Assembly: GCA_026196575.1 (NCBI GenBank)
Contig: JAPHSX010000019.1
Location: forward strand, 1 to 52,648
Length of the DNA: 52,648 nt
Source of the DNA: Gammaproteobacteria bacterium
Lineage (GTDB): Bacteria > Pseudomonadota > Gammaproteobacteria > Thiohalomonadales > Thiohalomonadaceae
Direction: 5' to 3'
Shown here: positions 1,214 through 33,815 of the stretch, in pieces
Numbering within the stretch: position 1 is the first letter of the stretch
How the letters are laid out: each line of letters begins with the position of its first letter
Made by a program: the position numbers and the translations under genes
Notes under the pieces: model-generated
The model's database searches: none
What the model was told of the DNA's origin: nothing
What the model saw: the letters and a program-made list of their open reading frames with translations, nothing else

Positions 1214-2113
1214 CTATTGGTGCTCTTTGCAGTAACCCTTGGCAAAATCGAGCAGCTTCTCCATCGCCCGCAGCCGAAACTTCTGCTTCTGGTGCACAAA
1301 GGAGAAGGGGCGCTCGATCGGCTCCTCCAGATTTATCGCCACCAGGCAACCGAGCTTCAGCTCCTTGTCGATGGTGGCGCGCGAAAGGATGGAGATCCCC
1401 ATGCCCGCCTCCACCGCCCCCTTCACCGCCTCGGGGCTACCCAGCTCCATCACGATATCGAGGTCGGAGCCGTTACCGCCGGCGGCGCTCATCGCCTCCA
1501 GCATCACCTCGCGGGTGCCGGAACCCTCCTCGCGGCAGATGTAGGGGTGGTTGCACAGCTCGGTGATCGGCACACTTTTCCTCTTTGCCAGCTCGTGGCT
1601 GGGCGGCACCACCAGCACCATCTGATCCATGCGACAGGTCTCGACCACCAGATTCTTGTTGCTCACCGGGGCCTCGACCACTCCCAGATCGATACTGTTG
1701 TTCTCCACCATCGAGACGATGCCATCGGTATTGGCCACCTGCAGACGGATGGAGACCTCGGGGTACTTCGCCTTGAAGTCACCCAGCAGCGCCGGCAACA
1801 TGTACTCGGCGATGGTGGTGCTGGCGCCGAGCATCAGCACCCCGCTCACCTCGCCGGTGAGGTCGCGCACCGCATTCTCCATCTCGGCGTAGAGCGAAAA
1901 GATGCGATCCGCGTACTCATAGACGCGCTGCCCCGCATCGGTCAGGCTGATGCGGTTATGGGTGCGATCGAACAGGCGGGTATTGAAATACTCTTCGAGC
2001 TGACGCACCTGAAAGGTGACCGCCGGCTGCGTCATGTGCAGTGACTCCGCCGCCTTGGTGAAGCTGAGCTGGCGTGCCACGGTATGGAATACCTGTAGTC
2101 GTCTATCGGCCAT
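1214..2113 (-). CDS. LysR-family transcriptional regulator
   Basis: DNA-binding regulator of 299 residues, the normal LysR length. Residues 1-65 form the winged helix-turn-helix (FHTVARQLSFTKAAESLHMT, then QPAVTFQVRQLEEY). From about residue 90 comes the periplasmic-binding-protein-like effector domain, including GASTTIAEYMLPALL and the EEGSGTRE loop that lines the ligand pocket in CysB/CbbR-type relatives. It resembles the CysL/YeiE/CbbR branch of LysR proteins, but the sequence does not reveal the inducer. It heads a minus-strand operon with a small hypothetical gene and the PerM-like transporter. The AT-rich stretch at 2114-2210 probably holds its promoter. Confidence 0.9.
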   Translation of the reverse strand: MADRRLQVFHTVARQLSFTKAAESLHMTQPAVTFQVRQLEEYFNTRLFDRTHNRISLTDAGQRVYEYADRIFSLYAEMENAVRDLTGEVSGVLMLGASTTIAEYMLPALLGDFKAKYPEVSIRLQVANTDGIVSMVENNSIDLGVVEAPVSNKNLVVETCRMDQMVLVVPPSHELAKRKSVPITELCNHPYICREEGSGTREVMLEAMSAAGGNGSDLDIVMELGSPEAVKGAVEAGMGISILSRATIDKELKLGCLVAINLEEPIERPFSFVHQKQKFRLRAMEKLLDFAKGYCKEHQ

Positions 2114-2210
2114 GACTACACTCTCCCTCCACGGAGCTATATGTAATATTTATGATGGGCAAGGATACTTTATAATACTGCGCAACGACAACTGCCACCG
2201 CCATGACTGA

Positions 2211-2756: not shown

Positions 2757-3794
2757 ATGACGACAGAGAGAATCACCCTCACCCGCCCCGACGATTGGCA
2801 CCTGCACCTGCGCGATGGCGACGGCCTCAAGGCGGTGGTGGGTCACACGGCCCGACAGTTTCACCGTGCCATCGTGATGCCCAACCTGCGGCCACCGCTC
2901 ACCACCACGGCACAGGCCCTGGCCTATCGCGAGCGCATCCTCTCCGCCCTGCCCACTGGCAGCGGGTTTGAGCCCCTGATGACCCTCTATCTTACCGACA
3001 ACACCTCACCGCAGGAGATCCAGCGGGCCTGGGAGAGTGGTGTGGTAAAGGCGGTCAAGCTCTATCCCGCCGGCGCCACCACCAACTCCGACGCCGGGGT
3101 GAGCCACATCTACAAGCCGGAGGCAGCGCTGCGGGCGATGGCCGAGGTGGGGATGCCGCTGCTGGTACACGGCGAGGTGACCGAGCCCCACGTCGACATC
3201 TTCGATCGCGAGTCGGTCTTTCTCGACACCGTGCTCAAGCCGCTGCTGGATCATATCCCCGACCTCAAGGTGGTGGCCGAACACATCACCACCCGCGAGA
3301 TGGCCGACTTCGTGCTGCACGCCGGCGACAAGGTCGCCGCCACCCTCACCCCGCAACACCTGCTGCTCAACCGCAACGCGCTGCTGGTGGGCGGCATCCG
3401 CCCGCACCACTACTGCCTGCCGGTGCTCAAGCGCGAGAGCCACCGCGAGGTCCTGCTGGAGGTCGCCACCTCCGGTAACCCCAAATTCTTCCTCGGCACC
3501 GACTCCGCCCCCCACGCCCGGAGTGCCAAGGAGAGCGCCTGCGGCTGCGCCGGGATCTACTCCGCCCACGCCGCCATCGAGCTTTACGCCGAGGCCTTCG
3601 AGCAGGCCGGCGCCCTGGAGAGGCTGCAGGGCTTCGCCAGCCATCACGGCGCCGACTTTTACGGCCTGCCGCGCAACGCTGATACCATCACCCTGGAGAG
3701 AAGGGCGTGGCAGGTGCCAGCCAGCTACCCCTTCGCTGACGAGGTAGTGGTGCCGCTCCGGGCGGGGGAAGCGGTCGCATGGCGACTACTATAG
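2757..3794 (+). CDS. pyrC: dihydroorotase
   Basis: Class II dihydroorotase, 345 residues (E. coli PyrC is 348), which cyclises carbamoyl-aspartate to dihydroorotate in pyrimidine synthesis. Zinc-site motifs are visible: [10 protein letters not shown] near residue 10, KLYPAG (the lysine that becomes carboxylated) near 100, LVHGEV, EHITT and GTDSAPH near 250. The reading frame is open upstream of 2757, but the family-typical start [17 protein letters not shown] points to the ATG at 2757. It lies alone on the plus strand, with the damaged CheB-CheR gene following in the same frame after the TAG stop. Confidence 0.96.
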
Positions 3795-3819
3795 GGGCTC
3801 CGAAGCCGAGGGTACGGGG

Positions 3820-6610
3820 ATGAAGCGCATGGCAGGCAAAAAAGCGGCAAAGGGGAGCACAACACCCCCACTACAGCGAAAGATAGCGCCGAGAGACGGC
3901 ACGGCGACTTTCCCATCGTCGGCATTGGCGCCTCCGCCGGCGGTCTGGAGGCATTCGAGCAGTTCTTCCGCCACATCGTGCCCGATAGCGGCATGGCCTT
4001 CGTGCTGGTGCCGCACCTCGACCCCGGCCATGACAGCATCCTGAGCGAGATCCTGCAACGCGCCACCGGCATGCCGGTGGTCGAGGCGGGGGATCAACTC
4101 AAGGTGGCCCCTGACCATGTCTATGTGATCCCGCCCAATCGCGACATGGCAATCTTTCACGGCACACTGCAACTGAGTGTGCCGGAGCAACCACGAGGCC
4201 ACCGCATGCCGATCGACACCTTCCTGCGCTCGCTGGCCGATGATCAGGGTGAGCGGGCCATCGGCGTCATCCTCTCCGGCACCGGCACCGATGGCACCCT
4301 GGGACTGCGCGCCATTATCGGCGCCGGTGGCATCACCCTGGTGCAGGAGCCGGCCAGCGCGGCCTACGACGGCATGCCCACCAGCGCCATTCGCGCCGGC
4401 TACGCCACCCACATCCTGCCCGCGGACAAAATGCCGGAGGCGCTGCAACGCACCAATCGCGCCCTGGCGGCCCATCCGCAAACCCCGTCGACCCCGGAGG
4501 TTACAAGCGGCATGAACCGCATCCTGCTGCTGCGCACCGCCACCGGCCACGACTTCTCCCTCTACAAAAAAAACACCATCGGCCGGCGCATCGAGCGGCG
4601 CATGTCGCAACACACTATCGACGATCTGGAGGGCTACGCCCGCTACCTCAAGGAGAATCCCGATGAGGTACACGCCCTGTTCAAGGAGCTGTTGATCAAT
4701 GTCACCAGCTTCTTTCGTGACCCGGAGGCCTTCATCGTCATGGAGAGGGAGATCCTGCCGCAACTGTTCGCGGAGAAGGGTGACGATGACACCTTTCGGG
4801 TCTGGGTGGCCGGCTGCGCCACCGGCGAGGAGGCCTACTCCATCGCCATTCTGTTGCGCGAGTATATGGATACCCACCGGCGGGAGTTGAAGGTTCAGCT
4901 CTACGCCACCGATCTTGACGCTGACGCCATCGCGGTGGCCCGTGCCGGCCTCTATCCGCCGAACATCCTGCAGGATCTCCCGGCCGAACGGCTACGCCGC
5001 TATTTTGTCAAGAGCGATGCGGGCTACCGCATAAAGAAGGAGATCCGCGACATGGTGGTGTTCGCGGTGCAGAACGCGATTAAGGATCCGCCCTTCACCC
5101 GTCTCGACCTGCTCAGTTGCCGCAACCTGATGATCTACCTGGAGACCGAGCTGCAGAACCGCCTGATACCCGTTTTTCACTACGCCCTCAGACCGGGCGG
5201 GGTGCTGTTTCTCTCCTCCGCCGAGAGTATCGGTGGCCATCCCGAACTGTTCACCCCCCTCAGCCGCAAGTGGAAGTTCTACCGCGCCAACCCATCCGCG
5301 GCCTCCGCCCGCTCGGTGATCAACCGGGTGTTGTCCTGGGAGGCGGAGAGCAAAACCAAGCCGCCCGAGGAGGTACTGAAGAAGGCGCAGTCACCGAATT
5401 TTGCCGAATTGACCCGGCAGCTGCTGCTCCAGTCCTACGCCCCCGCATCGGTGGTCACCGACCTGAAGGGCACTATCATCTATGTGCATGGCTGGACCGG
5501 CAAATACCTGCGGCCGGCCCCCGGCCAGGCCACGCTGAACGTGGTGGAGATGGCGCGTAACGGCCTGCAATTTGAACTGCGTCGGGCGTTGCAACACGCC
5601 GCTCAGGGCAAGGAGTTACTGAACCGCGAGGTGATGGTCACGGCCAGCGGTGAGTGCTATACCGTGAGCCTCAGCATCCGCCCCCTGGCCGATCCGCAAA
5701 TCGGCCAAGGGCTGTTGCTGGTGAGCTTTCAGGATGTCGCCACACGGGCGCAGAGGAGGCGCGGCGCATCGAGGAGCTGGAACACGAACTGGCCTATACC
5801 AAGGAGAATCTCCAGGTCACCGTGGAGCAGCAGCAGACCTCCAATGAGGAGCTGAGCACGGTCAATGCCGAATTTCAGGCCAAGATCGAGCAGTTGACGG
5901 TGATGCAGAACGACATGAAAAATCTGCTCGACAATATCAATATCGGCACCCTATTTCTCGATGAGCATCTATTGATCCGCCGCTTCACCCGCGATGCCAC
6001 GCACATCTACCGTCTGGTCGCCACCGACATGGGGCGGCCGCTGGCCGATATCAAATCGGATATCGAGGAGGAGCTGCTGCCCGACGCCCAGAAGGTGCTC
6101 GAAACCCTGGTGCCGTGCGAACGCGAGGTGCATACCAGCCACGACACCCACTACCTGGCGCGTATCCAGCCCTACCGCACGCTGGACAACGTGATCGATG
6201 GCGTGGTGCTCACCTTCACCGACATCAGCCAGCGCATCGCCATCGAGGCGGCACACCAGGAGGCGCGGCAACTGGCCGAGGGGATCGTCAACACGATACG
6301 GGAGCCGCTGCTGGTGCTGGACAGCCAGCTGAGGGTGGTCACCGCCAGCCGCTCGTTTTATCACCATTTTCAGGTTACCCCGGAGGTGACGCTGGGGCGG
6401 CCGGTGTATGAACTGGGCGATTGCCAGTGGGATATCCCGATGCTGCGCGAACTGCTGCACTCCCTGCTGCTGCGCGATGAGCCGTTCGAGGATTATCTGG
6501 TAGAGCATGACTTCCCCGCCATCGGCCACCAGAGGATGCGGCTCAATGCCCGCCGCATCAATACCCCGGCGGGTCAGCCGCGCCTGATCCTGCTGGTCAT
6601 AGAGGAATAA
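3820..6610 (+). pseudogene. CheB-CheR-PAS chemosensory fusion, frame-disrupted
   Basis: Remnant or mis-sequenced gene for a fused methylesterase/methyltransferase of chemoreceptor-type signalling. Domains in order: CheB (GIGASAGGLEAFE with the catalytic Ser, VLVPHLDPGHDS, GVILSGTGTDGTLG), CheR (GCATGEEAYSIAILL SAM loop, CRNLMIYLE), a coiled coil (EEARRIEELEHELAY, QQQTSNEELSTVNAEF), then two PAS domains. Two frame changes break it. The conserved CheB start (FPIVGIGASAGG, from 3909) has no ATG/GTG/TTG in its own frame after the pyrC stop; the likely start ATG at 3820 is in another frame. Between about 5735 and 5760 the frame changes again, before the coiled coil. Both changes are equivalent to one lost base. 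The protein ends directly after the second PAS domain. Confidence 0.8.
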
Positions 6611-13278: not shown

Positions 13279-13638
13279 AATACAGCTCCCTGCAAACCAT
13301 CCTGGTCGAGAGAGCGCGCCAGAGTATACCAGAAGGTGTCGGGGCGCAACACCGCTACACACATCAGTTGTTGGCATCCCTGTAAATAATAAATTCCTTC
13401 GAGTGAGAAGCAGCCGCCTCTTCTTCATTCCCTGCGTGGGAATACACCATCCATCAAATCGCCTTGACGCAATGAACGGCCGAGCCGCTCCCACGGCTGG
13501 CCCAATCCGATAAAGCATATCCCGGATATTTCATGAATGCGCGCAAGGGTCTCTTCTGAATATTATAAAACATCATGTCTAGGCAGTCATCGACGGTGCC
13601 ACTATAGTTGCGGGAGAAATCACAACAGAAGGTGCCCC

Positions 13639-14760
13639 ATGATCGTCATCCTGCAACCCCACGTTAACCGCAGCAGCGAAGAGTTCGACCGGCTGATGGA
13701 GTACATCGCCAACAAGCCGGGGCTCTCCGTGCGGGTGCATGAGGAGCACGGCAGCCTGCAGGTGCTGACCGAGCTCTATCTGATTGGCGATACGGCAAGT
13801 CTCAGCGAGGAGGAGATCGCCACCCTGCCCGGCGTGGAGCGGGTGGTGCGCATCTCCCAGGAGTACCGCATCCTCGGCCGCCACAAGGATGAGCACCGCC
13901 CCACCGGCTTTGAGTACAACGGGGTGCATTTCGGTCAGGACAACCTCAACATCTTCGCAGGCCTGTGCGCGGTGAACACCCCCGAGGATGTAGAGACAAT
14001 GATGCAGGCGCTACAAACCAACGGCCAGGTCTGCACCCGCATGGGGGCCTACAAGCCGCGCACCAGCCCCTACGCCTTTCAGGGCCATGGCAAGAACTGC
14101 CTGCCCTATGTCTTTGAGCTGGCGGGCAAATACGGCATCAAGGTGATCGCTATGGAGATCACCCATGAGTCGCACCTGGCCGAGATCAACGAGGCGCTGC
14201 ACCAGAGCGGCAACCCCACCGGGGTGATGCTGCAGATCGGCACCCGCAACACCCAGAACTTCGAGCTGCTAAAGGCGGTAGGGCGCCAACATCACCACCC
14301 GGTGCTGCTCAAGCGCGGCTTCGGCATCACCCTTGAGGAGTCGCTCAACGCCGCCGAATATCTCGCCAGCGAGGGCAACAGCAAGGTGGTGTTCGGCCTG
14401 CGCGGAATGAAGACCAACATGGCCGATCCGCACCGCAACTTTGTCGACTTCGCCCATGTGCCGGTGGTCAAACGACTCACCCGCATGCCGGTCTGCATCG
14501 ACCCCTCGCATTCGGTAGGCAACCGCGATGTGGCCCCCGATGGCCTGCTCGACGTCATGCACGTCACCGCTCAAGGGGTGATCGCTGGGGCCAACATGAT
14601 CCTGGTCGACTTTCACCCCCACCCGGCGCGCGCCCTGGTCGATGGTCCGCAGGCACTGACCCTGCCCGAACTGCCCTTTTTCATCGAGGATGTGACCATT
14701 GCCCGCGAGGCCTACGAAAAGCGCATCGCCCGCAGCCGTATCTTTCAGCGGCTCCATTAA
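13639..14760 (+). CDS. DAHP synthase-like protein (type I-beta fold), divergent
   Basis: 373 residues. A ferredoxin-like N-terminal domain (about 1-75, starting MIVILQPHVNRSSEEF) precedes a TIM barrel related to 3-deoxy-7-phosphoheptulonate synthases: FAGLCAVNTPED (place of AGPCSVE), AYKPRTSPYAFQG, LQIGTRNTQNFELLKAVG, LLKRGFG and CIDPSHSVGNRD. The family catalyses the first step of aromatic synthesis. Here some usually fixed positions differ: the CERG(I)RT segment reads FGLRGMKTN, and the metal-binding V-E-V-H reads L-V-D-F-H (Glu to Asp). So it may be a paralogue with a changed job. The frame is open back to 13537, but the ATG at 13639 fits the family start. Single gene. Confidence 0.8.
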   Translation: MIVILQPHVNRSSEEFDRLMEYIANKPGLSVRVHEEHGSLQVLTELYLIGDTASLSEEEIATLPGVERVVRISQEYRILGRHKDEHRPTGFEYNGVHFGQDNLNIFAGLCAVNTPEDVETMMQALQTNGQVCTRMGAYKPRTSPYAFQGHGKNCLPYVFELAGKYGIKVIAMEITHESHLAEINEALHQSGNPTGVMLQIGTRNTQNFELLKAVGRQHHHPVLLKRGFGITLEESLNAAEYLASEGNSKVVFGLRGMKTNMADPHRNFVDFAHVPVVKRLTRMPVCIDPSHSVGNRDVAPDGLLDVMHVTAQGVIAGANMILVDFHPHPARALVDGPQALTLPELPFFIEDVTIAREAYEKRIARSRIFQRLH

Positions 14761-14794
14761 TGAAGCCAACGTGTGATGTCACCAGCAGGCACAG

Positions 14795-14824
14795 ACATGA
14801 CAACAACATGACAGAAACATGACA
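14795..14824. repeat. three tandem ACATGACA repeats with 11-bp period
   Basis: Perfect copies of ACATGACA begin at 14795, 14806 and 14817, one helical turn apart, centred about 120 bp before the predicted start of the sigma-54 transcript. On the minus strand they read TGTCATG-N4-TGTCATG-N4-TGTCATG, which resembles PhoB half-sites in sequence and spacing. Candidate binding site for a response regulator or enhancer-binding protein. Confidence 0.65.
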
Positions 14825-14903
14825 CATGCGAACCTGCGTCATTGAAGCGGCAGCTTATGTCAGGAAGAAACCTCTAACCCTCTGATTTTTTTAGCAGAAT
14901 ATA

Positions 14904-14920
14904 TTGGCATGCCATTTGCT
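14904..14920 (+). promoter_or_regulatory. candidate sigma-54 (RpoN) promoter
   Basis: TTGGCATGCCATTTGCT matches the -24/-12 consensus (TTGGCACG-N4-TTGCT) at all but one base, with the invariant GG and GC 10 bases apart. No protein gene follows within reach on the plus strand; a terminator at 14990 does. Confidence 0.65.
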
Positions 14921-14930
14921 AAATACAGGT

Positions 14931-15018
14931 GACAGGTTTTGGAGGCTGGATACGCCTTCAAGCTTCTCCCTCCACACTGTGGTGTTTTTACGCGTCCATC
15001 CCCGGACGCGTTTTTTTT
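14931..15018 (+). ncRNA. candidate sigma-54-driven small RNA, about 88 nt
   Basis: Predicted transcript between the sigma-54 promoter and the terminator ending in eight Ts. It has no credible reading frame. Internal pairing of GGAGG (14941-14945) with CCTCC-like CTCCCTCC (about 14966-14973), and a CCACACTGTGG palindrome, suggest a structured RNA exposing a C/U-rich segment that could pair with ribosome binding sites. The exact 5' end is inferred from the promoter only; there is no match to a known family that I can name. Confidence 0.5.
14990..15018 (+). terminator. strong intrinsic terminator
   Basis: Stem ACGCGTCC (14990-14997) and GGACGCGT (15004-15011) with a 6-base loop, followed by TTTTTTTT to 15018. 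Oriented for plus-strand transcription only. Confidence 0.9.
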
Positions 15019-15068
15019 CCTCCTTCAAACCCACTCACCCCACCTCTCTCTTTGCAACCAACCTCCAC

Positions 15069-15647
15069 TCAACCGTAATAATCCGGCTCGTTTCCCGGTT
15101 TCCACTTGATATTACAGCCGAGGCTGGCCTTCTGCCCTTCGGGTACCGGCAGGTTGGCGAGTAGGGCCTTGATGGCATCCTCCAGATCGGCGCCGGTAAC
15201 CGGGGCATCATTGCCGGGACGGGAGTCATCGAACTGGCCGCGATAGGCGAGTTTGTGGTCGGCATCGAAAAGGTAGAAGTCGGGGGTACAGGCGGCACGG
15301 TAGGCCTTGGCGATCTGCTGGCTTTCATCGTAGAGGTAGGGGAAGTGGATGCCGTACTGCTCAATGAAGGTGGGCATCTGGTCCACGCCATCCTCCGCCT
15401 TGTACGCCACATCGTTGCTGCTGATGGCGACAAAGGCGACATCCCGCGGCAGGTAGCGGTCGGCCAGCTCCCCTACCCTGGCGGCGATATGTTTAACGAA
15501 GGGGCAGTGGTTACACCAGAAGATCACCACCAGCGGTCGACCGGCGAAATCCGTCAACGAGACGGTGCGTCCGGTGGACGGTTCCGGCAGGGTAAAGCCG
15601 GGGGCAGCGGTACCCAGCGGGAGCATGGTGGAGGGGGTTCTTGCCAT
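15069..15647 (-). CDS. thioredoxin-like/AhpC-TSA family redox protein
   Basis: 192-residue cytoplasmic protein with a thioredoxin fold. VIFWCNHCPFVKHI (about residues 41-54) carries a CNHC active-site pair in the place of CGPC; the cis-proline segment appears as AACTPDFYLFD. The sequence fits the group annotated as thioredoxin-family or resA/TlpA-like peroxiredoxin relatives that lack a signal peptide. Its partner is unknown. AAGGAG precedes the ATG. It stands alone between the small-RNA terminator and galU. Confidence 0.85.
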   Translation of the reverse strand: MARTPSTMLPLGTAAPGFTLPEPSTGRTVSLTDFAGRPLVVIFWCNHCPFVKHIAARVGELADRYLPRDVAFVAISSNDVAYKAEDGVDQMPTFIEQYGIHFPYLYDESQQIAKAYRAACTPDFYLFDADHKLAYRGQFDDSRPGNDAPVTGADLEDAIKALLANLPVPEGQKASLGCNIKWKPGNEPDYYG

Positions 15648-15725
15648 GGCCTTCTCCTTCTCTTTGGTTGTGCGGATAACCTATTGTAGAACACTGTGGC
15701 GCAACCGCCCCGCAACACTGTGTCG

Positions 15726-21312: not shown

Positions 21313-22548
21313 ATGGCCATTCATAAACTCTCCCCACGCAAGGTTGAAACCGCTGGCCCTGGCAAATATGAGGACGGCGGTGGACTTCGACTTGTAGTGT
21401 CAAAAACCGGTGCAAAAAAGTGGGTATTGCGGTTCACGTTCCACAGAGATAACGGTACTAAAAAGCGAAGGGAGATGGGCTTGGGTAGCTACCCTGATGT
21501 TGGGCTAGCTGAGGCAAGGGAGATGGCCTCCGAATACCGCAAAGATATTAAGAATGGGGTAGACCCAATCGAGGCTCGAAAGGTTGTCCCAGAAGAGGTC
21601 CCCTCCTTTGCCACCTGTGCCGCTCGGTACATTAGAGCGCACCGCCATGGTTGGAAGAGCGGCAAACACGCTAGGCAGTGGGTAAGGACATTAAAAACCT
21701 ACGCCCGTACTGAGATTGGCGCTAAAAAAGTGGATGCCATTACCACTGAGGACATACTGAAAATTCTCACCCCCATATGGAACAGCAAGACCGAGACCGC
21801 TAAACGACTTCAAGGGCGCATTGAAATAGTCCTCGACTATGCGGCTGCCCACAAATACCGCGATCCACTCAACCCAGCACGCTGGCGTGGTCACCTCGAC
21901 AAGCTGCTACCCAAACCCTCACGAGTGAAGAAGGCGAGCCACCACCCTGCAATGCCTTACATGGAGGTCCCCAGCTTTATGGCTGAACTGTCAGGAAATG
22001 ACAGCATTTCGGCAAAGGCCCTTCGTTTTCTGATCCTGACAGCAACCCGTACCAGTGAAGCGTTAGAAGCGAAGTGGGAAGAGATCGACCTAGACGCTGC
22101 GGTATGGACTATCCCAGCAGAACGGATGAAAGCAAAGAAGGAGCATCGTGTGCCTCTATCCAGTGCTGCAATCACTATTTTGAAGGAGCTAGACCGTGAA
22201 GAGGATAATCCCTACTTGTTCCCTGGCGCCCGAAATGGCCGCCCCCTCTCCAACATGGCACTACTTCAACTAATGAGGGGTATGGGATATGGAGTAAAAG
22301 GTGATCGGGGCAGCTACGTCCCCCACGGCTTCCGCTCAAGTTTCCGTGACTGGTCTGGGGAGGTGTCGAATTTCCCGCGTGACGTAGCAGAGATGGCCTT
22401 GGCCCATGTTATCGAAAACAAGGTGGAGGCCGCATACAGGCGTGGTGACCTATTCGCCAAACGATACAAGATGATGCAGGCGTGGTCAGACTACCTCGTA
22501 AGTACAGAAGCTGGCACTGTGATGGCACTCAAGCAAGAAAGGGCATGA
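21313..22548 (+). CDS. int: tyrosine recombinase (P4-type integrase)
   Basis: 411 residues. The N-terminal DUF4102 arm-binding domain is recognisable (KLSPRKVETAGPGKYEDGGG, then REMGLGSYPDVGLAEAREMA). The catalytic domain supplies Arg in ATRTSEALEAKWEE (about residue 247), HGFRSSFRDW (His-x-x-Arg, about 338), HVIENKVEAAY with the nucleophilic Tyr near 374. Such enzymes integrate islands at tRNA 3' ends, in line with the 17-bp repeat. AAAGGA lies before the ATG. It sits at the end of the element away from the tRNA, opposite to the most common arrangement. Confidence 0.95.
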   Translation: MAIHKLSPRKVETAGPGKYEDGGGLRLVVSKTGAKKWVLRFTFHRDNGTKKRREMGLGSYPDVGLAEAREMASEYRKDIKNGVDPIEARKVVPEEVPSFATCAARYIRAHRHGWKSGKHARQWVRTLKTYARTEIGAKKVDAITTEDILKILTPIWNSKTETAKRLQGRIEIVLDYAAAHKYRDPLNPARWRGHLDKLLPKPSRVKKASHHPAMPYMEVPSFMAELSGNDSISAKALRFLILTATRTSEALEAKWEEIDLDAAVWTIPAERMKAKKEHRVPLSSAAITILKELDREEDNPYLFPGARNGRPLSNMALLQLMRGMGYGVKGDRGSYVPHGFRSSFRDWSGEVSNFPRDVAEMALAHVIENKVEAAYRRGDLFAKRYKMMQAWSDYLVSTEAGTVMALKQERA

Positions 22549-22574
22549 GACGACAGATGCCGATGCTGACTCAA

Positions 22575-23507
22575 CTATTTTTCTTGGCGATCAACCCACA
22601 CAAATTTTTCATTTGATAAGGTTGATTCACCATCCCACCGATACGCTACCAGTTTGCCGCCCGGTTTTGCGACGCTGTAATCAAGGCAGGCGATATTTCC
22701 GGCCAAGCCCTGGGGCTGGCCTTCCAACCAGTAGTGGCCCATGAAGACTGGCGGCTCATGATGTGAGTAGTTAAGCAAGTGATCACCGTCAACTTCATCA
22801 TCTGGAATATGTGTTGACGCAGATTCAGGCCCAAAAAAAGCCTGGCGATATGTTGTCGCAGCCCCATCCCACCAGCGGATGCGGATATGGTGCCTCTCAT
22901 TCCCATCCTTGTCCTGAAAACTGTTCCCTGGTGACAGAGGAATTTCCTTGCCTTTCAGAAGGGTTTCTACAGCCTCGAACTCCCATGTCTCCGGTCTCGA
23001 AGCTGCATCCAGCAGTGCATCAGATAATAGAATACTGCCGTAATGTTGTTTGATTCGGTTGATCCAGCTCTCATCCCAGCAAGCATGGATAAGGCGGAAA
23101 CCGTCTAAATCCAACCATAGTGGCAAGGTTTTAAACCACGCAATGACATCAGCATACTCACTGAGGTCTGGCTCATAGGCATTGAGAAACATCTCGTGTT
23201 GCCGATAATTCTTTTCAGAGTGTTCGCGTAAATAACCTCTGCCGTCACCCCTCTGGGAATAGTAGGCAATAGCATTAAATTCATGGTTTCCCATAACGGA
23301 GACAGCAGCCCCAGACTTTATCATGGGCCGGACAATATTGATGACCCCCCGCTGATCCGGCCCACGATCAATGAAGTCTCCTAAAAACGCGACTAAACGT
23401 GATGGATGACGATAGACACCATCAACCTTGGCGTAGCCCAGAGTCTCAAGCAGGCGCACCAAACTACCGGAACACCCGTGGATATCGCCAATAATGTCGT
23501 AACTCAT
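22575..23507 (-). CDS. metallophosphoesterase (PrpE/ApaH-like) in hsd operon
   Basis: 310-residue calcineurin-like phosphatase. The dimetal motifs are complete: YDIIGDIHGC (N-terminus), FLGDFIDRGPDQRG, VMGNHEFNA, then RLIHACWDES and FMGHYWLEG. Relatives split dinucleoside polyphosphates or act as protein/small-molecule phosphatases; substrate unknown. I use the ATG at 23507 (MSYDIIGDIHG); a GTG at 23528 would overlap the preceding gene by 8 bases. It is the last gene of the five-gene restriction operon, 13 bases after the peptidase gene, which suggests co-transcription. It could be a cargo gene unrelated to restriction or an added effector that cleaves a nucleotide signal. Confidence 0.85.
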   Translation of the reverse strand: MSYDIIGDIHGCSGSLVRLLETLGYAKVDGVYRHPSRLVAFLGDFIDRGPDQRGVINIVRPMIKSGAAVSVMGNHEFNAIAYYSQRGDGRGYLREHSEKNYRQHEMFLNAYEPDLSEYADVIAWFKTLPLWLDLDGFRLIHACWDESWINRIKQHYGSILLSDALLDAASRPETWEFEAVETLLKGKEIPLSPGNSFQDKDGNERHHIRIRWWDGAATTYRQAFFGPESASTHIPDDEVDGDHLLNYSHHEPPVFMGHYWLEGQPQGLAGNIACLDYSVAKPGGKLVAYRWDGESTLSNEKFVWVDRQEK

Positions 23508-23520
23508 CACCGCCAGCCTG

Positions 23521-24438
23521 CTATCCACGCGGGGCTTTCTTAGCGCGGGTGAATTGTGTGTGATTCACAAGCCCTAAAAAGGTCTCGACCTGACCGGCAG
23601 CCCGCATGACCTGATAGAAATCCATCCCCGCCATTTCTTCATGCTCACCTCTTTTGGGCTTTACAAAATTGGAGAGATAGCTTTGCGACTTTGGTTCAAT
23701 ACCTTGTCGGTGGCAAACGATATAAGCTACAGACTCCGCTTCAATCTCTCTCTGTGTATGCGATACACCCTTTCGGTCGGGGATATTAAGATCCTTGTCT
23801 CGACCGCAATGACCAAGGCATAGATGGCCAAGTTCATGTGCAAGCGTAACAAACTGGGTGACAGGGGAATGATTCTGATTGATGCTTAGCAAATACCTCC
23901 GCTTGGCTTTACGGTCTTTCTTGGGGAAATCATCTACATAACCAGCCTTGGCATCTCCGCCATCAAACGCCGCCCACTCAATACCCCTCTTCCACAGCTT
24001 TTTGGCAAATTCATACATACGCTGTTTACTCATCTCACCTCTAGCCGGAAACATCTGTGCAGATTCGGGTAGTGGCTCACCCTCTGTATCTTGCACATCA
24101 TAAACAAGTGCAACAGGTCCAAATGGCCACAGAATCAGCAAAGGGCGCGCGTCTCTTTTGGGATAGCGGTTAAATCGTTCTTGCCAGTCTCGCGCTGATG
24201 CAGCATAGGTCAGGCCTGGCTTCTGAATATGCAGGAGCATGGCATTGAAGGGGGCAAAATTACGCAGTTTCACGGTGAATTTCAGCATCTCGCGATAGTC
24301 TTTACTTCTGGTATAGAGCCGAGACTCCTCCAGCAGACCATCAAGCAGGCTTCGTGCCTGTTCCTCATCAACTGACGCTTCGGAAGCCTGCTTAGCCTGA
24401 GGCTTCTCATCCTGCCCATCAAACAAGTCATCCATCAT
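23521..24438 (-). CDS. ArdC/ImmA-like M78 family zinc metallopeptidase
   Basis: 305-residue protein. The N-terminal part (about 35-115: KFTVKLRNFAPFNAMLLHIQ, then DWQERFNRYPKRDARP) resembles the ssDNA-binding ArdC-type domain, and the C-terminal half holds the zinc peptidase motif LAHELGHLCLGH with a second conserved E-x-E-A-E-S-V-A-Y-I helix. ImmA/IrrE proteases cleave repressors; ArdC proteins counter restriction. Here it follows hsdR by 31 bases, so it could regulate, protect from, or act alongside the restriction complex. I take ATG 24438 with AAGGA nine bases before it. The family assignment is mine; the role is inference. Confidence 0.75.
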   Translation of the reverse strand: MMDDLFDGQDEKPQAKQASEASVDEEQARSLLDGLLEESRLYTRSKDYREMLKFTVKLRNFAPFNAMLLHIQKPGLTYAASARDWQERFNRYPKRDARPLLILWPFGPVALVYDVQDTEGEPLPESAQMFPARGEMSKQRMYEFAKKLWKRGIEWAAFDGGDAKAGYVDDFPKKDRKAKRRYLLSINQNHSPVTQFVTLAHELGHLCLGHCGRDKDLNIPDRKGVSHTQREIEAESVAYIVCHRQGIEPKSQSYLSNFVKPKRGEHEEMAGMDFYQVMRAAGQVETFLGLVNHTQFTRAKKAPRG

Positions 24439-24469
24439 CACTGTTATTCCTTAACGCCGTCCAAGACCT

Positions 24470-27400
24470 CTATTCGATCAATTCCCTACTATCGCCATGT
24501 TTGATAATGTCGTATACCAAGCTAAAGAACGCCGCCATGTGCTGACCATCTTTTAGGAGTGTACGCGCTAGGTCGTTATGTGACTTCATAGCGCTCACGG
24601 TGGCCTGCCTGACCACATCCGGCAGGTCGCCTTGCAGGGCCTGAGCCTTGGTGTTCTTCTCCACCTGTTCGACCACTCGTGAGTTGTCCCTGGCGATATT
24701 GACTACCTGGGTGGTGAAGTGTCGCTGTCCCATGTCGTTGGCCACATCACCAAATAGGTCGTTCATGCGGGCGATGATCTGGTGCAGGAATTCCTTCTCT
24801 CTGTCACTTGCCTCGGCCTCATTCGGGCCGATGGGCTTGAGGGTATACTTCTCACCCTCCTCCTCTATATCCTTCTGCGGCTTGATGGCAGTCCACGCCA
24901 AGGTCAATCCGGTCAGGTCGATCTGCTCAGGGGATACCCCCTTCAACCGCTTGGAGAAGAGCTTGGCGAAGGCGGCGAAGTTCTCCAGCTCGGCGTCGGC
25001 CAGCTCGACCAACTGAGCGATGTAGTTGTAGACCCGCACGAAGCGGCCAAGGTCGCTCTTGAAGCGCAGCAGGGCCTCGCGCTGGGTGGAGAACTCACTG
25101 CGCTGCGCCTCTGCGTAGTTCTTGGCCTTCTCGTCATTCGCACTAATGGCCTTGTCGATGGCGTGGTCCCACTTCTCAATGGCATCGCCTAGGGCATTGA
25201 GCTTGCTATTAAAGACGTCGGTAGGGCGCTGGGTGGCGCTGTAGAGCTTTTTGTGAATATGCTCGGGGGTAGCATTTCCCAGCAATGCCTTGCCCCGCGC
25301 CTGTTTGAAGGCTTCAAGGTCTTCCGGCAGATAGATCCCCGCATCATCGAGAATGTTGCGCATGTCGTAGACCACATCAAGGTCCTGCACACTCTCCATC
25401 TCGGCCCCGTCGTCGTACATGCGGAAGGCGTCGAGGATGGTCTGTGGCTCGTTGGTGAAGTCGATGACGTAGGTCTCGTCCTTGCCGGGATAGGTACGGT
25501 TGAGGCGCGAGAGGGTTTGTACCGCCTCTACGCCGCTTACCTTCTTGTCTAGATACATCGCCACCAGCTTGGGCTGATTGAAGCCGGTCTGGAACTTGTT
25601 GGCGACGATCATCACCTGAAACTCGTGCTTCTCGAACTCGTTACGCAGGTCACCGCTGGCACCGGGGTTGAGGTTGTACTCGGCGTACTCCTTCTCCGGG
25701 TCGATACCCAGCGGCAGCTCCTCGTCCTCATCCCCTAATATGCTGCCCGGCACCTTGCCGGAGAAGGCCACCAGCGCCTTGAGGCCCTTACCCTGATAGT
25801 GCCTGTTGATGTACTGGTCGAAGGCGAGCTTGTATTTTACCGCCTGCGGCCTGCCGCTGGTGACTACCATCGCCTTGGCCTCGCCGTTCAGCAGCGGCGC
25901 GATGTTTTGCAGGAAGTGTTCGATGATGAACTCCACCTTCTGGCTGACGATGGTGGGGTGCAGTGACTTCCAGCGGGCCAAGGCGCGGCGGGCAAACTTC
26001 TTGTCCACCCGCTTGTCGTTGATTGCCTCATCCCCCAGCCGCAGCGCCTGCTGGTAGGGGGTATAGTTACGCAGCACATCTAGGATGAAGCCCTCCTCGA
26101 TGGCCTGGCGCTGGGTATAGCGGTGGAAGGAGTCCGGCTTGTTCTCATCGGAAACCGGCTGTGTCGGGTCCTTGGGGCGACCGAACAGGGTCAGGGTACT
26201 GTGCTTGGGGGTGGCGGTGAAGGCGAAGTGGCTGACGTTGGCCGGGCGAACGCGGGACTTCTGCACCTCCAGCAGCACCTCCTCAAGTGTCATCTCCTCC
26301 ATCTTCGCCTTGGTATCCAGCGACAGGGCCGCCCGCAGCCCCTGAGCGGTAGAGCCGGTCTGTGAGGTGTGGGCCTCGTCGATGATCACGGCGAAGCTGC
26401 GCTCCTTGAGCGACTGCTCGGTGATGATCGCCTCCATGGCATAGGGGAAGGTCTGGATGGTGACGACGATGATCGGCACCCCCTTCTGCAACGCCTCGGC
26501 CAAGCGCTTGCTCTTCGACTCCCCGCCCTTCTGGTTGGCGTCGATGGTCTCGATCAGGCCGAACTGGTGGTCGAGCTGCTTCACCGCATCCTGTAACTGG
26601 GCATCCAGCACGGTACGGTCGGTGACGATAATCACCGAGTTGAAGTAGGCCTTGCCGTCGGGATAACGCAGTTTCACCAAGTCATGGGCGGTCCAAGCGA
26701 TGGTGCTGGTCTTACCGGAACCGGCGGAGTGTTCGCACAGGTACTGCTGCCCGGCCCCCTTCTCCTTGGCGTCGGAGATCATCTTGTTCACCGCCTCGAA
26801 CTGGTGATAGCGGGGGAAGATCAGGGTCTCGTCAGTGTAGGGCATACCAAACTTGTCCACCTTCTCCTTGGTCTCCACATAGACAAAGCTGTGGAAGATG
26901 CGCAGCCACGCGTCGGGCTGGCAGATCTCCTCCCAGAAGTAGGCCACCGGGTACTCCCCATCGTCGCGGGCCTTGTTGCCCGCATGACCGTCGTTGCCCT
27001 TGTTGAAGGGGAGGAAGTAGGTTTTCTCGCCATTGAGGTGGGTGGTCATTTCAATCGCGCTGTCGCTCATGGCGAAGTGGACCACCGCCCCGCGCTTGAA
27101 GGTAAGCAACGGCTCGCGGCGCTTGGTCTTGGGGTCCTGCGGCAGTCGGTCTCTCTTGTACTGCCAGATCGCGTCATCGATGGCCTGGGTAAAGTCGGTC
27201 TTCAACTCCACCGTCGCCACGGGGATGCCGTTGATGAAGAAGCCGAGGTCGATAGCCCACTCCCGCGTGGGGTTGTACTTCAACTGACGCACCACCCGCA
27301 GGATGTTGTGCCGGTACTTCTCCACCTCTCGGCTGTTGCGCTCATCCTCCGGCGCGGACTGGCTCATCTCAATCTTGCCCACCCCGGCCACGGAGAGGCC

Positions 27401-27667
27401 CTCACGCAGCACCTTCATAGTGCCGCCGGACTTGGCCGACAGCGCCTTCTCCAGTCGGTCGAGAAGGGTATTCTCAGCGGAGGACCCGTTGTGCCGCTCC
27501 AGCTTCTCCCACGCATCCGGCTGCGCCGCCTTTACCCAAGCGACCACATCCTCAGGATAGAGCGCCCGTACCGGGTCGTAATGGCTATTGTGGCCCTCCA
27601 CCCAGCCGTTCTCGACCAGCTGCTGGACGACGTAGCTTTCAAGGTGGGCTTCGTGATGTGCGGCCAT
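24470..27667 (-). CDS. hsdR: type I restriction endonuclease subunit R
   Basis: Motor and nuclease subunit of a type I restriction enzyme, 1065 residues. A PD-ExK nuclease appears near residues 140-160 (IDLGFFINGIPVATVELKTD). Helicase motifs follow: Walker A SAGSGKTSTIAW (about 315), VTDRTVLDAQL, DEAH in FAVIIDEAHTSQTG (about 428), FAFTATPK (about 485) and QTLSRLNRTYPGKDE (about 720). A helical C-terminus would contact HsdM. The frame is open further upstream, but the ATG at 27667 has GGGAG at good distance and begins the family-like MAAHHEAHLESYVV. Third gene of the minus-strand operon, 116 bases after hsdS. Confidence 0.96.
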   Translation of the reverse strand: MAAHHEAHLESYVVQQLVENGWVEGHNSHYDPVRALYPEDVVAWVKAAQPDAWEKLERHNGSSAENTLLDRLEKALSAKSGGTMKVLREGLSVAGVGKIEMSQSAPEDERNSREVEKYRHNILRVVRQLKYNPTREWAIDLGFFINGIPVATVELKTDFTQAIDDAIWQYKRDRLPQDPKTKRREPLLTFKRGAVVHFAMSDSAIEMTTHLNGEKTYFLPFNKGNDGHAGNKARDDGEYPVAYFWEEICQPDAWLRIFHSFVYVETKEKVDKFGMPYTDETLIFPRYHQFEAVNKMISDAKEKGAGQQYLCEHSAGSGKTSTIAWTAHDLVKLRYPDGKAYFNSVIIVTDRTVLDAQLQDAVKQLDHQFGLIETIDANQKGGESKSKRLAEALQKGVPIIVVTIQTFPYAMEAIITEQSLKERSFAVIIDEAHTSQTGSTAQGLRAALSLDTKAKMEEMTLEEVLLEVQKSRVRPANVSHFAFTATPKHSTLTLFGRPKDPTQPVSDENKPDSFHRYTQRQAIEEGFILDVLRNYTPYQQALRLGDEAINDKRVDKKFARRALARWKSLHPTIVSQKVEFIIEHFLQNIAPLLNGEAKAMVVTSGRPQAVKYKLAFDQYINRHYQGKGLKALVAFSGKVPGSILGDEDEELPLGIDPEKEYAEYNLNPGASGDLRNEFEKHEFQVMIVANKFQTGFNQPKLVAMYLDKKVSGVEAVQTLSRLNRTYPGKDETYVIDFTNEPQTILDAFRMYDDGAEMESVQDLDVVYDMRNILDDAGIYLPEDLEAFKQARGKALLGNATPEHIHKKLYSATQRPTDVFNSKLNALGDAIEKWDHAIDKAISANDEKAKNYAEAQRSEFSTQREALLRFKSDLGRFVRVYNYIAQLVELADAELENFAAFAKLFSKRLKGVSPEQIDLTGLTLAWTAIKPQKDIEEEGEKYTLKPIGPNEAEASDREKEFLHQIIARMNDLFGDVANDMGQRHFTTQVVNIARDNSRVVEQVEKNTKAQALQGDLPDVVRQATVSAMKSHNDLARTLLKDGQHMAAFFSLVYDIIKHGDSRELIE

Positions 27668-27783
27668 GACAACTCCCTTTGTGGTTTTTTTAGGCTTGGT
27701 TTCTAACGTCGATGATGTGCAGGGATGCACGAATGCCGCGAGCACATGGATGAGCAGGAGCGGCCTTGCCGGTGATGGGTAAA

Positions 27784-29130
27784 TTACGCATTTCTGACAT
27801 CTATCTTCCCTGTCACGGCGGCGCTGATTAAGGCGGTGCGGTGTTCTTTGAGAAGCTCAACCGAAATACCTGTCTCACCCAAAATAGCATCGTACTTTCT
27901 CAAAGCAGCTTTCAGGTGTTCTACGATTCTTTGCTGTTCATCATGCGGTGGGATGGGGGCTGGGTAACTACCAATATCTGCGCAGGTAATCGCACCCTTG
28001 GTACTTCCAGCACCCGATGACTCATAACGGATTCGGTCATACTGTGAAGTCATCCAGAAGTGAATATACTCAACATCAACACCTGATTTATTTATTCTGA
28101 TTGCGGCTAAATGCTGGTTGATTGTTGCCTCTATCATACAAATGGCTACGCGACCTCTCGTTTGCCCCTCGCCAGTGATCGCAATAAGTATGTCGCCTTC
28201 TGTTACTGGCTGAACACTAGTCTCTTTCAGAGCTTTCTCGGTGATAAACTGGTCTGCCTGAGTGATAACACCATCATTAATCTTCGAGCTGTTGAGCCAG
28301 CCGATACTGCCATCTTCCCAATACTCAGGATTATCCCTTGAAGGTGTAGCGCCGTTTGAGATGCTAGCGAGATATTTAATTTTTCCACTACCCCAATGCT
28401 CCGGCACCTCCCCAATCCACTCAACCCCTGAGTCTTTCATCTTCACATTGGGGTCGAGGCCCTTGGTGACGATGTGGCTGATGAGGGCCTGACGCTTCTC
28501 CTTGAGAAGATTGATGAAGTTCTGCTTTTCGGCAATCAGGTTGTCGATACGGGCGATTTCGCGGTCGAGGTAGTCGGCAATCCTCTGCTGTTCTGCCGTA
28601 TCAGGAAAACAAAAGTAATTCGACAGGTATGAATCGGAGTCTATGTTCTGTATGCCTGTCGTCTGCTTGATGGACATAAAGTTGACTTTCCGATCATACA
28701 GATGACTAAACCCATAGGTTAAATACCGGCTATCAAAGCCACAACGAGGCGACATTTTCGCAACAAAATTCGAAGAAACAGCAGCATACTCATGCTCAAA
28801 TAAGACAACGCAACCGACTAACGTCTTTTCTCCTCCTCCCGACTTCTCGATCAACAGGTCGCCACTCTTGAGTAATCGTTTCTCACTTTCCTTGGGCGTG
28901 ATATAACGGTAAGTGAGTTTCTCATTAGAGACTTTCAACGCTGTCCTATCAAAGTCAGCTACCCGCAGTACGACAAGATCGTCTTGCCCGCTAGGTTCCT
29001 CTCCCCATATACCGTTAACACAGCCGGTTACACTTCTTTTTAAAGCATGAAGTCCCCAATGCGCGGGAATCTCGCCCAACCACTCAACTCCCGACTCCTT
29101 GTACTCAGGATAAGGCTGCACCCCACTCAC
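27784..29130 (-). CDS. hsdS: type I restriction system specificity subunit S
   Basis: DNA-recognition subunit, 448 residues, built as two target-recognition domains each preceded by a copy of the same motif: KESGVEWLGEIPAHWG near residue 10 and KDSGVEWIGEVPEHWG near residue 234. Each half ends with a conserved helix segment (EQQRIADYLDREIARID; EQQRIVEHLKAALRKYD). The target half-sites cannot be predicted here. Start is GTG, overlapping the hsdM stop by GTGA, so translation is coupled. Confidence 0.95.
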   Translation of the reverse strand: MSGVQPYPEYKESGVEWLGEIPAHWGLHALKRSVTGCVNGIWGEEPSGQDDLVVLRVADFDRTALKVSNEKLTYRYITPKESEKRLLKSGDLLIEKSGGGEKTLVGCVVLFEHEYAAVSSNFVAKMSPRCGFDSRYLTYGFSHLYDRKVNFMSIKQTTGIQNIDSDSYLSNYFCFPDTAEQQRIADYLDREIARIDNLIAEKQNFINLLKEKRQALISHIVTKGLDPNVKMKDSGVEWIGEVPEHWGSGKIKYLASISNGATPSRDNPEYWEDGSIGWLNSSKINDGVITQADQFITEKALKETSVQPVTEGDILIAITGEGQTRGRVAICMIEATINQHLAAIRINKSGVDVEYIHFWMTSQYDRIRYESSGAGSTKGAITCADIGSYPAPIPPHDEQQRIVEHLKAALRKYDAILGETGISVELLKEHRTALISAAVTGKIDVRNA

Positions 29131-31109
29131 TCCGCCACCTCCGCTAGCAGCGCCTGTATCCGCGCCTCCGAGACCTTGAGGTCGGCGTCGATCTCATGCA
29201 GCGGGCGTGGCGGCACATACTTGTAGAAGTAGCGGTTGAAGTTGATCTCGTAGCCGACGAGGCCGACCTCGCCGTCCTTGGGGTCGCGCACCGAGTAGTC
29301 GATGAAGGCGTCGGGGACGTGTGGCAGCACCTCCTGGGCGAAGTACTCCTCTACCTTGGTGCCGAAGGGGACGCTCTCGGTGTCGTTGAGGGAGGTGTCG
29401 GGGACGACCTGCCCCTTGTCATCCAGCACCGGCTCGGCCTCCTCATCGCGCTCCATAAAGACAGCGACAAAGGCGTTGGCCAAGGGCTTGCCGGTCTTGC
29501 CGAAGCCTGCCTGCTTGTTGTTGGCCGATACCACATCAAAGGCCCAGTGGTAGTCGTGGTCGCCGAGGCTGGCGCGGAAGAAGTCCACCCACGCGGCCTG
29601 CTGGGTCTCGTCCAGCTTCTGGAAGGCCTTGTTCTCGTAGAGGGCCTTGATGCGCTCCTTGGTGATGCTGAGCTTGGCCTTGAGGGGGCGCTTGATGGCC
29701 ACCTTGCGGAAGGCGAAATCGGTGGTGTTGAAGATTTTGCAGTGTTTGCCGCGTCGGAAGCCTTCGTACAGGCGCACCACATCATCGATCTGGGTATGGG
29801 TGAGATAGCGGCGCTTGGTCCCCTCGGACTTGCGCATGGAGGTCCATGTGTCGGCCAGATTGATGAGCTGCACCTTGTCCTTGCGCCGCATCTCCTTGTG
29901 GTTGGAGAGGATCCAGACATAGGTGCCGATACCGGTGTTGAAGAACATATCGGTGGGCAGGGCGATGATCGCCTCGACCAAGTCCTGCTCCAGCAGCCAG
30001 CGGCGGATCTCGCTCTCGCCGGAACCGGCATCACCGGTAAAGAGGGGGGAGCCGGAGAGGACGATACCGACGCGCCCGCCCCCGTTCTCTGGGCGTTCCA
30101 TCTTGCTCACCAAGGTCATCAGAAAGAGCATGGAGCCGTCGCTGACACGCGGCAGGCCGGGGCCGAAGCGCCCGGCGTAGCCCAGCTCCTGTTGCTCCTT
30201 CTCCACCGCCGCCTTGTCCTTCTCCCACTTGATGCCGAAGGGGGGGTTGGCGAGGCCGTAGTGGAATTTATGGTCGCGCAGCTGGTCGTTGGAGAGGGTG
30301 CTGCCCTGCTTGATGTTCTCCGACTTGAAGCCCTGGATCAGCATGGCGGTAAGGGCCATGGCGTGGGTGCGGGGGTCCAGCTCCTGGCCAAAGGGGACGA
30401 TCTCGGCGGTGGAACCCATCTCCCGTATCACCCCGATGGCGTCGGTGATAAAGCCCAACAGGCCGCAGGCCGGGTCGTAGACGGTGCGGATGAGGCCCGA
30501 CTCCTGAAACATCGCCTCATCGGGGGCCAGCACCAGCTTGGTGGCGAGGTGGACCACATCCTTGGGGGTCATGAACTCCCCCGCCTTCTCGTTGATGCTG
30601 GCGGCGAACTGGCGGATCAGCTCTTCGTAGGCGTTGGAGAGGTCACGGTCGGAGACCGCATCGGGGTGCAGGTCGATGGCGGCGAACTGGCTGGTCATGC
30701 GGTAGAGCAGCCGCGCCTTGCTCAACTCGTGGATGGTGTTGGCGAAGCCAAACTCCTCGAAGATCACCCGCACATTGGCGCTGAATTTGCTGATGTACTC
30801 CTCAAGGTTGGGGGCGGTCTTGGTGCCGCCCAGCGTCTCCAAGCTGTACTGGCTGGTGTTGTAGAACGGCAGGCCGGAGAAGGAGGGCAGGATCAGGTTC
30901 AGGTCAATGCCGGAGTCCTTCTCCTTCTCGTACTCGGCCAGCACCTTCGCCTTGGTCGGCTCCAGCACACACTCCAGACGGCGCAGCAGCAGCAGCGGGA
31001 TGACGATGCGGGCAAAGTCGGTGTGCTTGAAGTCACCCCACAGGTCGTTGGCGATTTTCCAGATGAAGTTCGAAAGGTTGATGCTGTCGGTTGTTTTTGT
31101 TGTTTCCAC
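29127..31109 (-). CDS. hsdM: type I restriction system methyltransferase subunit M
   Basis: N6-adenine methyltransferase subunit, 660 residues. N-terminal HsdM helical domain (INLSNFIWKIANDLWGDF, LLLLRRLECVLEPTK); the SAM region begins with FMTPKDVVHLATKL. The SAM-binding motif I reads DPACGLLGF (about residue 213) where type I enzymes usually have GTGG; the catalytic motif IV NPPFG is normal (ANPPFGIKW, about 285). The C-terminal 200 residues include an interaction region with EYFAQEVLPHVPDAF. It starts with GTG and heads the operon hsdM-hsdS-hsdR-peptidase-phosphatase; a divergent gene lies 99 bases away. Whether the altered loop still binds SAM is not certain. Confidence 0.95.
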   Translation of the reverse strand: METTKTTDSINLSNFIWKIANDLWGDFKHTDFARIVIPLLLLRRLECVLEPTKAKVLAEYEKEKDSGIDLNLILPSFSGLPFYNTSQYSLETLGGTKTAPNLEEYISKFSANVRVIFEEFGFANTIHELSKARLLYRMTSQFAAIDLHPDAVSDRDLSNAYEELIRQFAASINEKAGEFMTPKDVVHLATKLVLAPDEAMFQESGLIRTVYDPACGLLGFITDAIGVIREMGSTAEIVPFGQELDPRTHAMALTAMLIQGFKSENIKQGSTLSNDQLRDHKFHYGLANPPFGIKWEKDKAAVEKEQQELGYAGRFGPGLPRVSDGSMLFLMTLVSKMERPENGGGRVGIVLSGSPLFTGDAGSGESEIRRWLLEQDLVEAIIALPTDMFFNTGIGTYVWILSNHKEMRRKDKVQLINLADTWTSMRKSEGTKRRYLTHTQIDDVVRLYEGFRRGKHCKIFNTTDFAFRKVAIKRPLKAKLSITKERIKALYENKAFQKLDETQQAAWVDFFRASLGDHDYHWAFDVVSANNKQAGFGKTGKPLANAFVAVFMERDEEAEPVLDDKGQVVPDTSLNDTESVPFGTKVEEYFAQEVLPHVPDAFIDYSVRDPKDGEVGLVGYEINFNRYFYKYVPPRPLHEIDADLKVSEARIQALLAEVAE

Positions 31110-33724: not shown

Positions 33725-33741
33725 ATATGGCGGAGAGGGTG
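33725..33741. repeat. right attachment site at tRNA-Ser(UGA) 3' end
   Basis: Second copy of the 17-bp repeat, inside and just past the tRNA 3' end, so the tRNA remains intact after integration. Confidence 0.88.
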
Positions 33742-33815
33742 GGATTCGAACCCACGGAAGGTCGCCCTTCAACGGTTTTCAAGACCGTCGCTTTCGGCCG
33801 CTCAGCCACCTCTCC
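33728..33815 (-). tRNA. tRNA-Ser (UGA)
   Basis: 88-nt class II tRNA with encoded CCA (33728-33730). Minus strand: acceptor GGAGAGG, anticodon loop CTTGAAA closed by ACGGT/ACCGT (anticodon TGA), long variable arm, T loop GGTTCGAATCC. It is the integration site of the element. Confidence 0.97.

Follow-up and report, generated by a model that had tools for sequence, protein, structure and literature searches.

Background

In the pairs Qrr with LuxO, GlmY with GlrR, CrcZ with CbrB and NrsZ with NtrC, a small RNA is turned on by sigma-54 together with an enhancer-binding protein dedicated to it. FisR of Cupriavidus pinatubonensis and Acinetobacter baumannii is a sigma-54 activator with an N-terminal sensor, an AAA+ domain and a Fis domain; its gene lies near sulfide:quinone reductase and it activates the sulfide-oxidation operon. 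A tetrasulfide forms between C53 and C64 of the Cupriavidus protein (PMC8614764). FisR of A. baumannii responds to sulfide although the sensing cysteines are missing from it (PMC7315123), so that cysteines alone are no proof of the signal. Among small RNAs, Rfam family RF02278 (Betaproteobacteria toxic small RNA/S17) includes B. cenocepacia ncS03/05/27/62 and B. pertussis S17. These RNAs are short, with an unpaired C/U-rich stretch directed against ribosome binding sites (RBS), a CCAC/GUGG-type hairpin and a U-tailed terminator. S17 represses mRNA at the RBS (PMC11722255).

Here we describe a locus in a 52,648-nt stretch of DNA from a member of the Thiohalomonadales (contig JAPHSX010000019.1; hereafter, the window). 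An initial annotation, made from the sequence alone, had read it as a candidate sigma-54-dependent small RNA unlike those of known kind.

Methods

Positions 14895-15022 of the window served as a BLAST query against 39 relatives. A sequence-only model of 28 positions was run on 20 genomes of the order (here a single family), and other members of the class were covered by a 369-genome sample. A half-site cluster was defined as four or more TGACA/TGTCA half-sites within 110 bp, with the expected number taken from a first-order Markov model. A regulon pattern search was carried out across the 20 genomes. Rfam covariance models were applied to the window and its relatives, and folding was compared with that of dinucleotide shuffles.

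Results

The features of the locus are collected in Table 1. In the promoter element, GG (14906-14907) and GC (14918-14919) are spaced exactly 10 bases apart, as the initial annotation had noted, and the match to the sigma-54 consensus TGGCAYRNNNNTTGCW, which it had called near-perfect, is perfect. Because the 2.74 Mb genome has 4 matches to TGGCAYRNNNNTTGCW and 3 to a reversed control, the promoter site is not significant by itself; conservation gives it significance. No sigma-70-like promoter was detected near the RNA gene, from 14500 to 15700, and the window's genome carries rpoN (488 bits; cut-off 277).

Table 1. Coordinates of the features at the locus and of one candidate target within the window
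Feature	Position	Strand	Basis or remark
DAHP synthase, upstream neighbour, not part of system	13537..14760	+	flank differs in other genera
Upstream activating sequence (predicted), five TGTCA/TGACA half-sites	14777..14862	+	cluster statistics, relatives
Sigma-54 (-24/-12) promoter TGGCATGCCATTTGCT	14905..14920	+	TGGCAY-N6-YGC kept in 12/12 homologous loci
Predicted small RNA, ~88 nt	14931..15018	+	start inferred 12 nt after -12 GC; comparison with relatives
5' hairpin (hairpin 1), sequence variable, present in relatives	14934..14965	+	folding vs shuffles
C/U-rich anti-Shine-Dalgarno segment CUUCUCCCUCC, proposed seed	14963..14973	+	C/U-rich in 12/12
Near-invariant core CCACACUGUGGUGU with short CCAC/GUGG hairpin 2	14972..14985	+	comparison of relatives
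Intrinsic terminator ACGCGTCC-ATCCCC-GGACGCGT, then T8 (15011-15018)	14990..15018	+	terminator stem after core in 12/12
AhpC/TSA (redoxin) family protein, convergent downstream neighbour, not part of system	15069..15647	-	
Candidate target: LysR regulator RBS GTGGAGGGAGA, 11 nt perfectly complementary to RNA	2114..2132	-	gene 1214-2113 (-)

The predicted RNA keeps the length of 88 nt first proposed for it and contains no ATG. TTG-started frames span the region but continue past the terminator into the gene that follows, in agreement with the earlier reading that no reading frame lies there. The strong eight-T terminator of that reading is borne out as a stem of 8 pairs (14990-15011) with T8. 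Within the C/U-rich segment, CTCCCTCC occupies 14966-14973, and the near-invariant core CACACUGUGGUGU can form CCAC/GUGG. Compared with dinucleotide shuffles, folding of the 5' part is better (p<0.05) in 8-9 of 11 sequences; whole-RNA z-scores, to which the terminator contributes, range from -2.2 to -6.0 in ten sequences. UGGA or GGA occurs in the loop of hairpin 1 in several genera (in the window, for example, at 14945-14955) and recalls CsrA sites. Among the traits of an Hfq-dependent trans-acting small RNA, the U-rich tail is the one seen.

BLAST returned matches in nine further genomes, all of the same family; within the RNA these mostly covered the 3' half only, outside the promoter. Each of the nine has TGGCA[C/T]-N6-[C/T]GC upstream at a similar distance, and since it was the RNA sequence alone that first led to these relatives, their promoters are an independent confirmation. 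The 28-position model recovered the same ten genomes, with one copy each. Two divergent copies complete the set, one adjoining the activator gene described below in G006 (core TCTACTCTGTGGTGTTT) and one found via promoter architecture in G015 (CTCCTCACTATGGAGTTTTTA). A homologous RNA gene is present in 12 of the 20 genomes of the order (the window's and 11 others), single copy where counted, with a GC-to-core distance of 53-73 nt and an RNA length of 87-108 nt. The TGGCAY-N6-YGC promoter, the C/U-rich stretch with its short hairpin (CUCCNUCCACACUGUGGUG-UUUU) and the terminator are kept together in all 12; loss of promoter and terminator in relatives, which the initial annotation had named as evidence against its proposal, was checked and not seen. 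In the core, G001 has a longer loop, G002 and G006 have C-G changed to U-G, and G015 has an alternative CUCC/GGAG stem; these variants are compatible with a predicted hairpin, the covariation being not strong. No credible match was found in other members of the class in the 369-genome sample, and weak matches in G121 and G356, with neither promoter nor terminator, were judged to be chance. On this comparison the small RNA gene is real and evolutionarily conserved, and found only in the order Thiohalomonadales, to which the sulfur oxidisers of Thiohalomonas belong; with high probability it is a sigma-54-dependent small RNA gene, as first proposed.

The genes flanking the RNA vary (DAHP synthase; bioA-like/rhodanese; agmatinase/gph; others). 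Because they change among genera, the association with DAHP synthase is incidental, and a role tied to that enzyme was rejected. Further sigma-54 sites were seen in two relatives. One, TGGCATACAACTTGCC in G001 (L077:5665), comes directly after the terminator of the RNA, and two tandem rhodanese genes lie downstream of it. The other, in G006 (L074:7522), is situated between RNA and activator gene and is accompanied by a TGACA cluster of its own; no gene follows it in the direction it faces, and it possibly serves a second RNA. Elsewhere in the window, a phage-type integrase adjoins a type I restriction-modification set (HsdR-, HsdS- and HsdM-like) at 21313-31109; together with a tRNA at 33731-33815 (-), this region is likely a mobile island.

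The half-sites upstream of the promoter begin at 14777, 14798, 14809, 14820 and 14858 (spacing 21, 11, 11 and 38), and three of the five sit in a 13-nt direct repeat with an 11-bp period. TGACA/TGTCA clusters also precede the RNA promoter in relatives, with just two exact half-sites in G017 and G019. In 261 kb around the RNA and activator loci, 22 clusters were observed vs 0.25 expected, located ahead of either the RNA or a single PAS-AAA+-Fis activator gene and almost nowhere else. The clusters upstream of the activator's own gene point to autoregulation; in G015 that region is without a full cluster. An orthologue of this activator (at least 67% identity) occurs in exactly the 12 RNA-bearing genomes. 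None was found in the eight RNA-free genomes of the order, and the best match elsewhere had at most 49% identity. The all-or-none co-occurrence has p=7.9e-6 by species, a value inflated because presence and absence run along related genera (6 with, 5 without), and 1/462 (~0.002) by genus; both values ignore phylogeny. In eight genomes no more than about 2.5 kb separates the activator gene from the RNA, and in G000, G002, G010 and G015 the two are unlinked; in the window's genome the activator gene stands on another contig (G000:C74, ~3688-5013), adjoining neither the RNA nor sulfide:quinone reductase.

The regulon pattern search recovered the RNA promoters, including the G015 copy, and no other recurring gene across the 20 genomes. 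The PEP-CTERM regulator PrsR, suggested by nearby polysaccharide genes, was rejected as the activator: its motif, with TTTACA at the end (PMC1569441), is at odds with TGACA/TGTCA. Predicted upstream sites and a putative cognate enhancer-binding protein, as expected of a sigma-54-dependent small RNA, are both present. The findings argue strongly that the activator drives the RNA promoter, and the small RNA gene is probably controlled by a FisR-like protein.

Like FisR, the activator has a sensor, an AAA+ sigma-54 domain and a Fis helix-turn-helix. Its PAS cysteines C55, C66 and C73 are invariant in 12/12 genomes, with spacing of 11 and 7. The C55-C66 spacing equals that of C53-C64 in FisR of C. 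pinatubonensis, and C73 would match C71, which we take to be the third FisR cysteine. In several genomes the gene preceding the activator encodes a sulfide:quinone reductase (E=4e-172 against 3sz0, a solved enzyme of this kind), and tandem rhodaneses adjoin it in G001 and G007. We infer with moderate confidence, from these sequence features, that sulfane sulfur is the activator's signal. Whereas known FisR activates a sulfide-oxidation operon, the sole conserved sigma-54 promoter with a half-site array here is that of the RNA.

No Rfam family reached its threshold in the window or its relatives, and no GlmY/GlmZ, CrcZ, NrsZ or Qrr match was listed; the unlikeness to known sigma-54 small RNAs remarked on in the initial annotation holds. 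The nearest family was RF02278, at 22.3 bits in the window and 21-26 bits in relatives, below the threshold of 50. A general layout of two hairpins with an unpaired C/U-rich anti-RBS stretch is common to both. The core sequence differs, and the RNA gene here has a sigma-54 promoter and TGACA array, whereas S17 and the RF02278-like RNAs of the same genomes have a sigma-70 type promoter. Most RNA-bearing genomes have a better RF02278-like RNA at another locus (up to 45.8 bits, below 50; TTGACA/TATATT promoter), which in the window's genome is G000:C64:174028-174100 (L156). Given this separate sigma-70-driven RNA in the same genomes, the RNA described here would be a second, separately regulated anti-RBS RNA. 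RF02278/S17-like RNA (CUCCUCCAYCCUCCUUUGGUGG) with a sigma-70 promoter was observed throughout the order at 23-46 bits (L028-L042, L045, L156); the RF02278 family is not confined to Betaproteobacteria.

The C/U-rich stretch complementary to ribosome binding sites, also pointed out in the initial annotation, is an anti-Shine-Dalgarno sequence kept in 12/12 genomes; its pairing stays predicted. A search for complementary RBS in 11 genomes gave 15 matches, with no excess over a reversed-pattern control, and seed pairing over sampled starts of the window's genome was no better than that of shuffled seeds (43/100). Besides the LysR regulator (Table 1), a FadL-type outer membrane protein is a candidate target in genus g8, with pairing of 17 nt in G008 and 15 nt in G014; in four other RNA-bearing relatives this pairing was weak, no better than in two RNA-free genomes. 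The activator's own RBS pairs well with the RNA in genus g8 only. None of these candidates (FadL-type, LysR or activator mRNA) is conserved or statistically secure. We hold RBS blocking by the C/U segment with moderate confidence, and the target mRNAs with little.

Discussion

Genome comparison shows an RNA gene with a sigma-54 promoter, clusters of half-sites, and one-to-one co-occurrence with a single activator. The best explanation of the whole, which we consider probable, is that a FisR-like sensor acts with sigma-54 to turn on an RNA, which in turn blocks the RBS of mRNAs. The locus would encode a trans-acting, non-coding regulatory RNA of ~88 nt. Sigma-54 RNA polymerase would sit at -24/-12, and the FisR-like enhancer-binding protein (PAS-AAA+-Fis helix-turn-helix) would bind the helically phased TGACA/TGTCA half-sites upstream. 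Reaction of the PAS cysteines with sulfane sulfur (persulfide/polysulfide from sulfide oxidation) would then open the promoter. The RNA is predicted to fold into the 5' hairpin, an accessible CUCC(N)UCC segment, the short conserved hairpin, and the terminator with its U tail; the C/U segment may pair with the Shine-Dalgarno region of selected mRNAs and so repress them. A fuller reading is offered more tentatively, as a possibility we do not yet favor outright. It is that of a persulfide-sensing sigma-54 activator whose sole conserved sigma-54 output in the order is a translation-retuning small RNA; the two would be the equivalent of LuxO-Qrr for sulfur stress, and the same cell would have a second anti-RBS RNA driven by sigma-70. 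Cells may adjust protein synthesis by RNA as reactive sulfur accumulates.

It is highly improbable that the locus holds no RNA gene, just a chance promoter-like site and a terminator belonging to DAHP synthase. The promoter site alone is about as frequent as chance genome-wide and the terminator lies 230 bp past the DAHP synthase stop, but the promoter-RNA-terminator unit recurs in 12 genomes, several of them with no DAHP synthase gene nearby, and conservation in other genomes rules out a terminator of the upstream gene only. Descent is a different question, as the RNA could be a divergent RF02278 branch captured by a sigma-54 promoter after duplication, an ancestry compatible with RBS blocking under a FisR-like activator. 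We regard it as unlikely: the layout CUCC..CCAC..GUGG..UUUU..terminator is similar and several loci give weak model scores, yet all of these fall below threshold and are partly owed to the terminator, and most genomes have the better-scoring, sigma-70-driven RNA elsewhere.

Two further alternatives concern what the system senses and what the RNA acts on. The RNA might be sigma-54-dependent and activator-driven with the activator sensing some other cue (redox, metal or nitric oxide), the sulfur genes being chance neighbours. Cysteine-containing PAS domains are able to bind metals or cofactors, and sulfide:quinone reductase is not adjacent to the activator in the window's genome, G001 or G010; the match in cysteine spacing to FisR and the sulfide:quinone reductase or rhodanese genes adjoining the activator in several genera speak against this, and we consider it quite unlikely. 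It is distinctly improbable that the RNA acts on protein, with its GGA-bearing hairpin 1 titrating CsrA, or the RNA titrating Hfq as CrcZ does for Crc/Hfq. GGA does lie in or near the hairpin 1 loop in several genera, but such sites are few per RNA and not kept in every genome, and conservation falls on the C/U segment and core rather than on GGA.

The literature searched showed no case of a small RNA controlled by a persulfide-sensing sigma-54 activator. If confirmed, RBS blocking under a FisR-like activator would give chemolithotrophs a further, post-transcriptional level of control over sulfide and sulfane-sulfur homeostasis, and would be a case of two anti-RBS RNAs in one cell, one sigma-70-driven and one inducible. 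The pair of promoter and activator is easily tested, and since S17, the nearest studied relative, represses a sigma-54 activator, one can test directly for feedback on the FisR-like gene.

As far as our searches show, the RNA family and the activator class are new, while the kind, a sigma-54 activator with a dedicated small RNA, is known. The principle is the same as in Qrr/LuxO, GlmY/GlrR, CrcZ/CbrB and NrsZ/NtrC, but the activator here is of a different class, with a cysteine-bearing PAS domain and no receiver domain.
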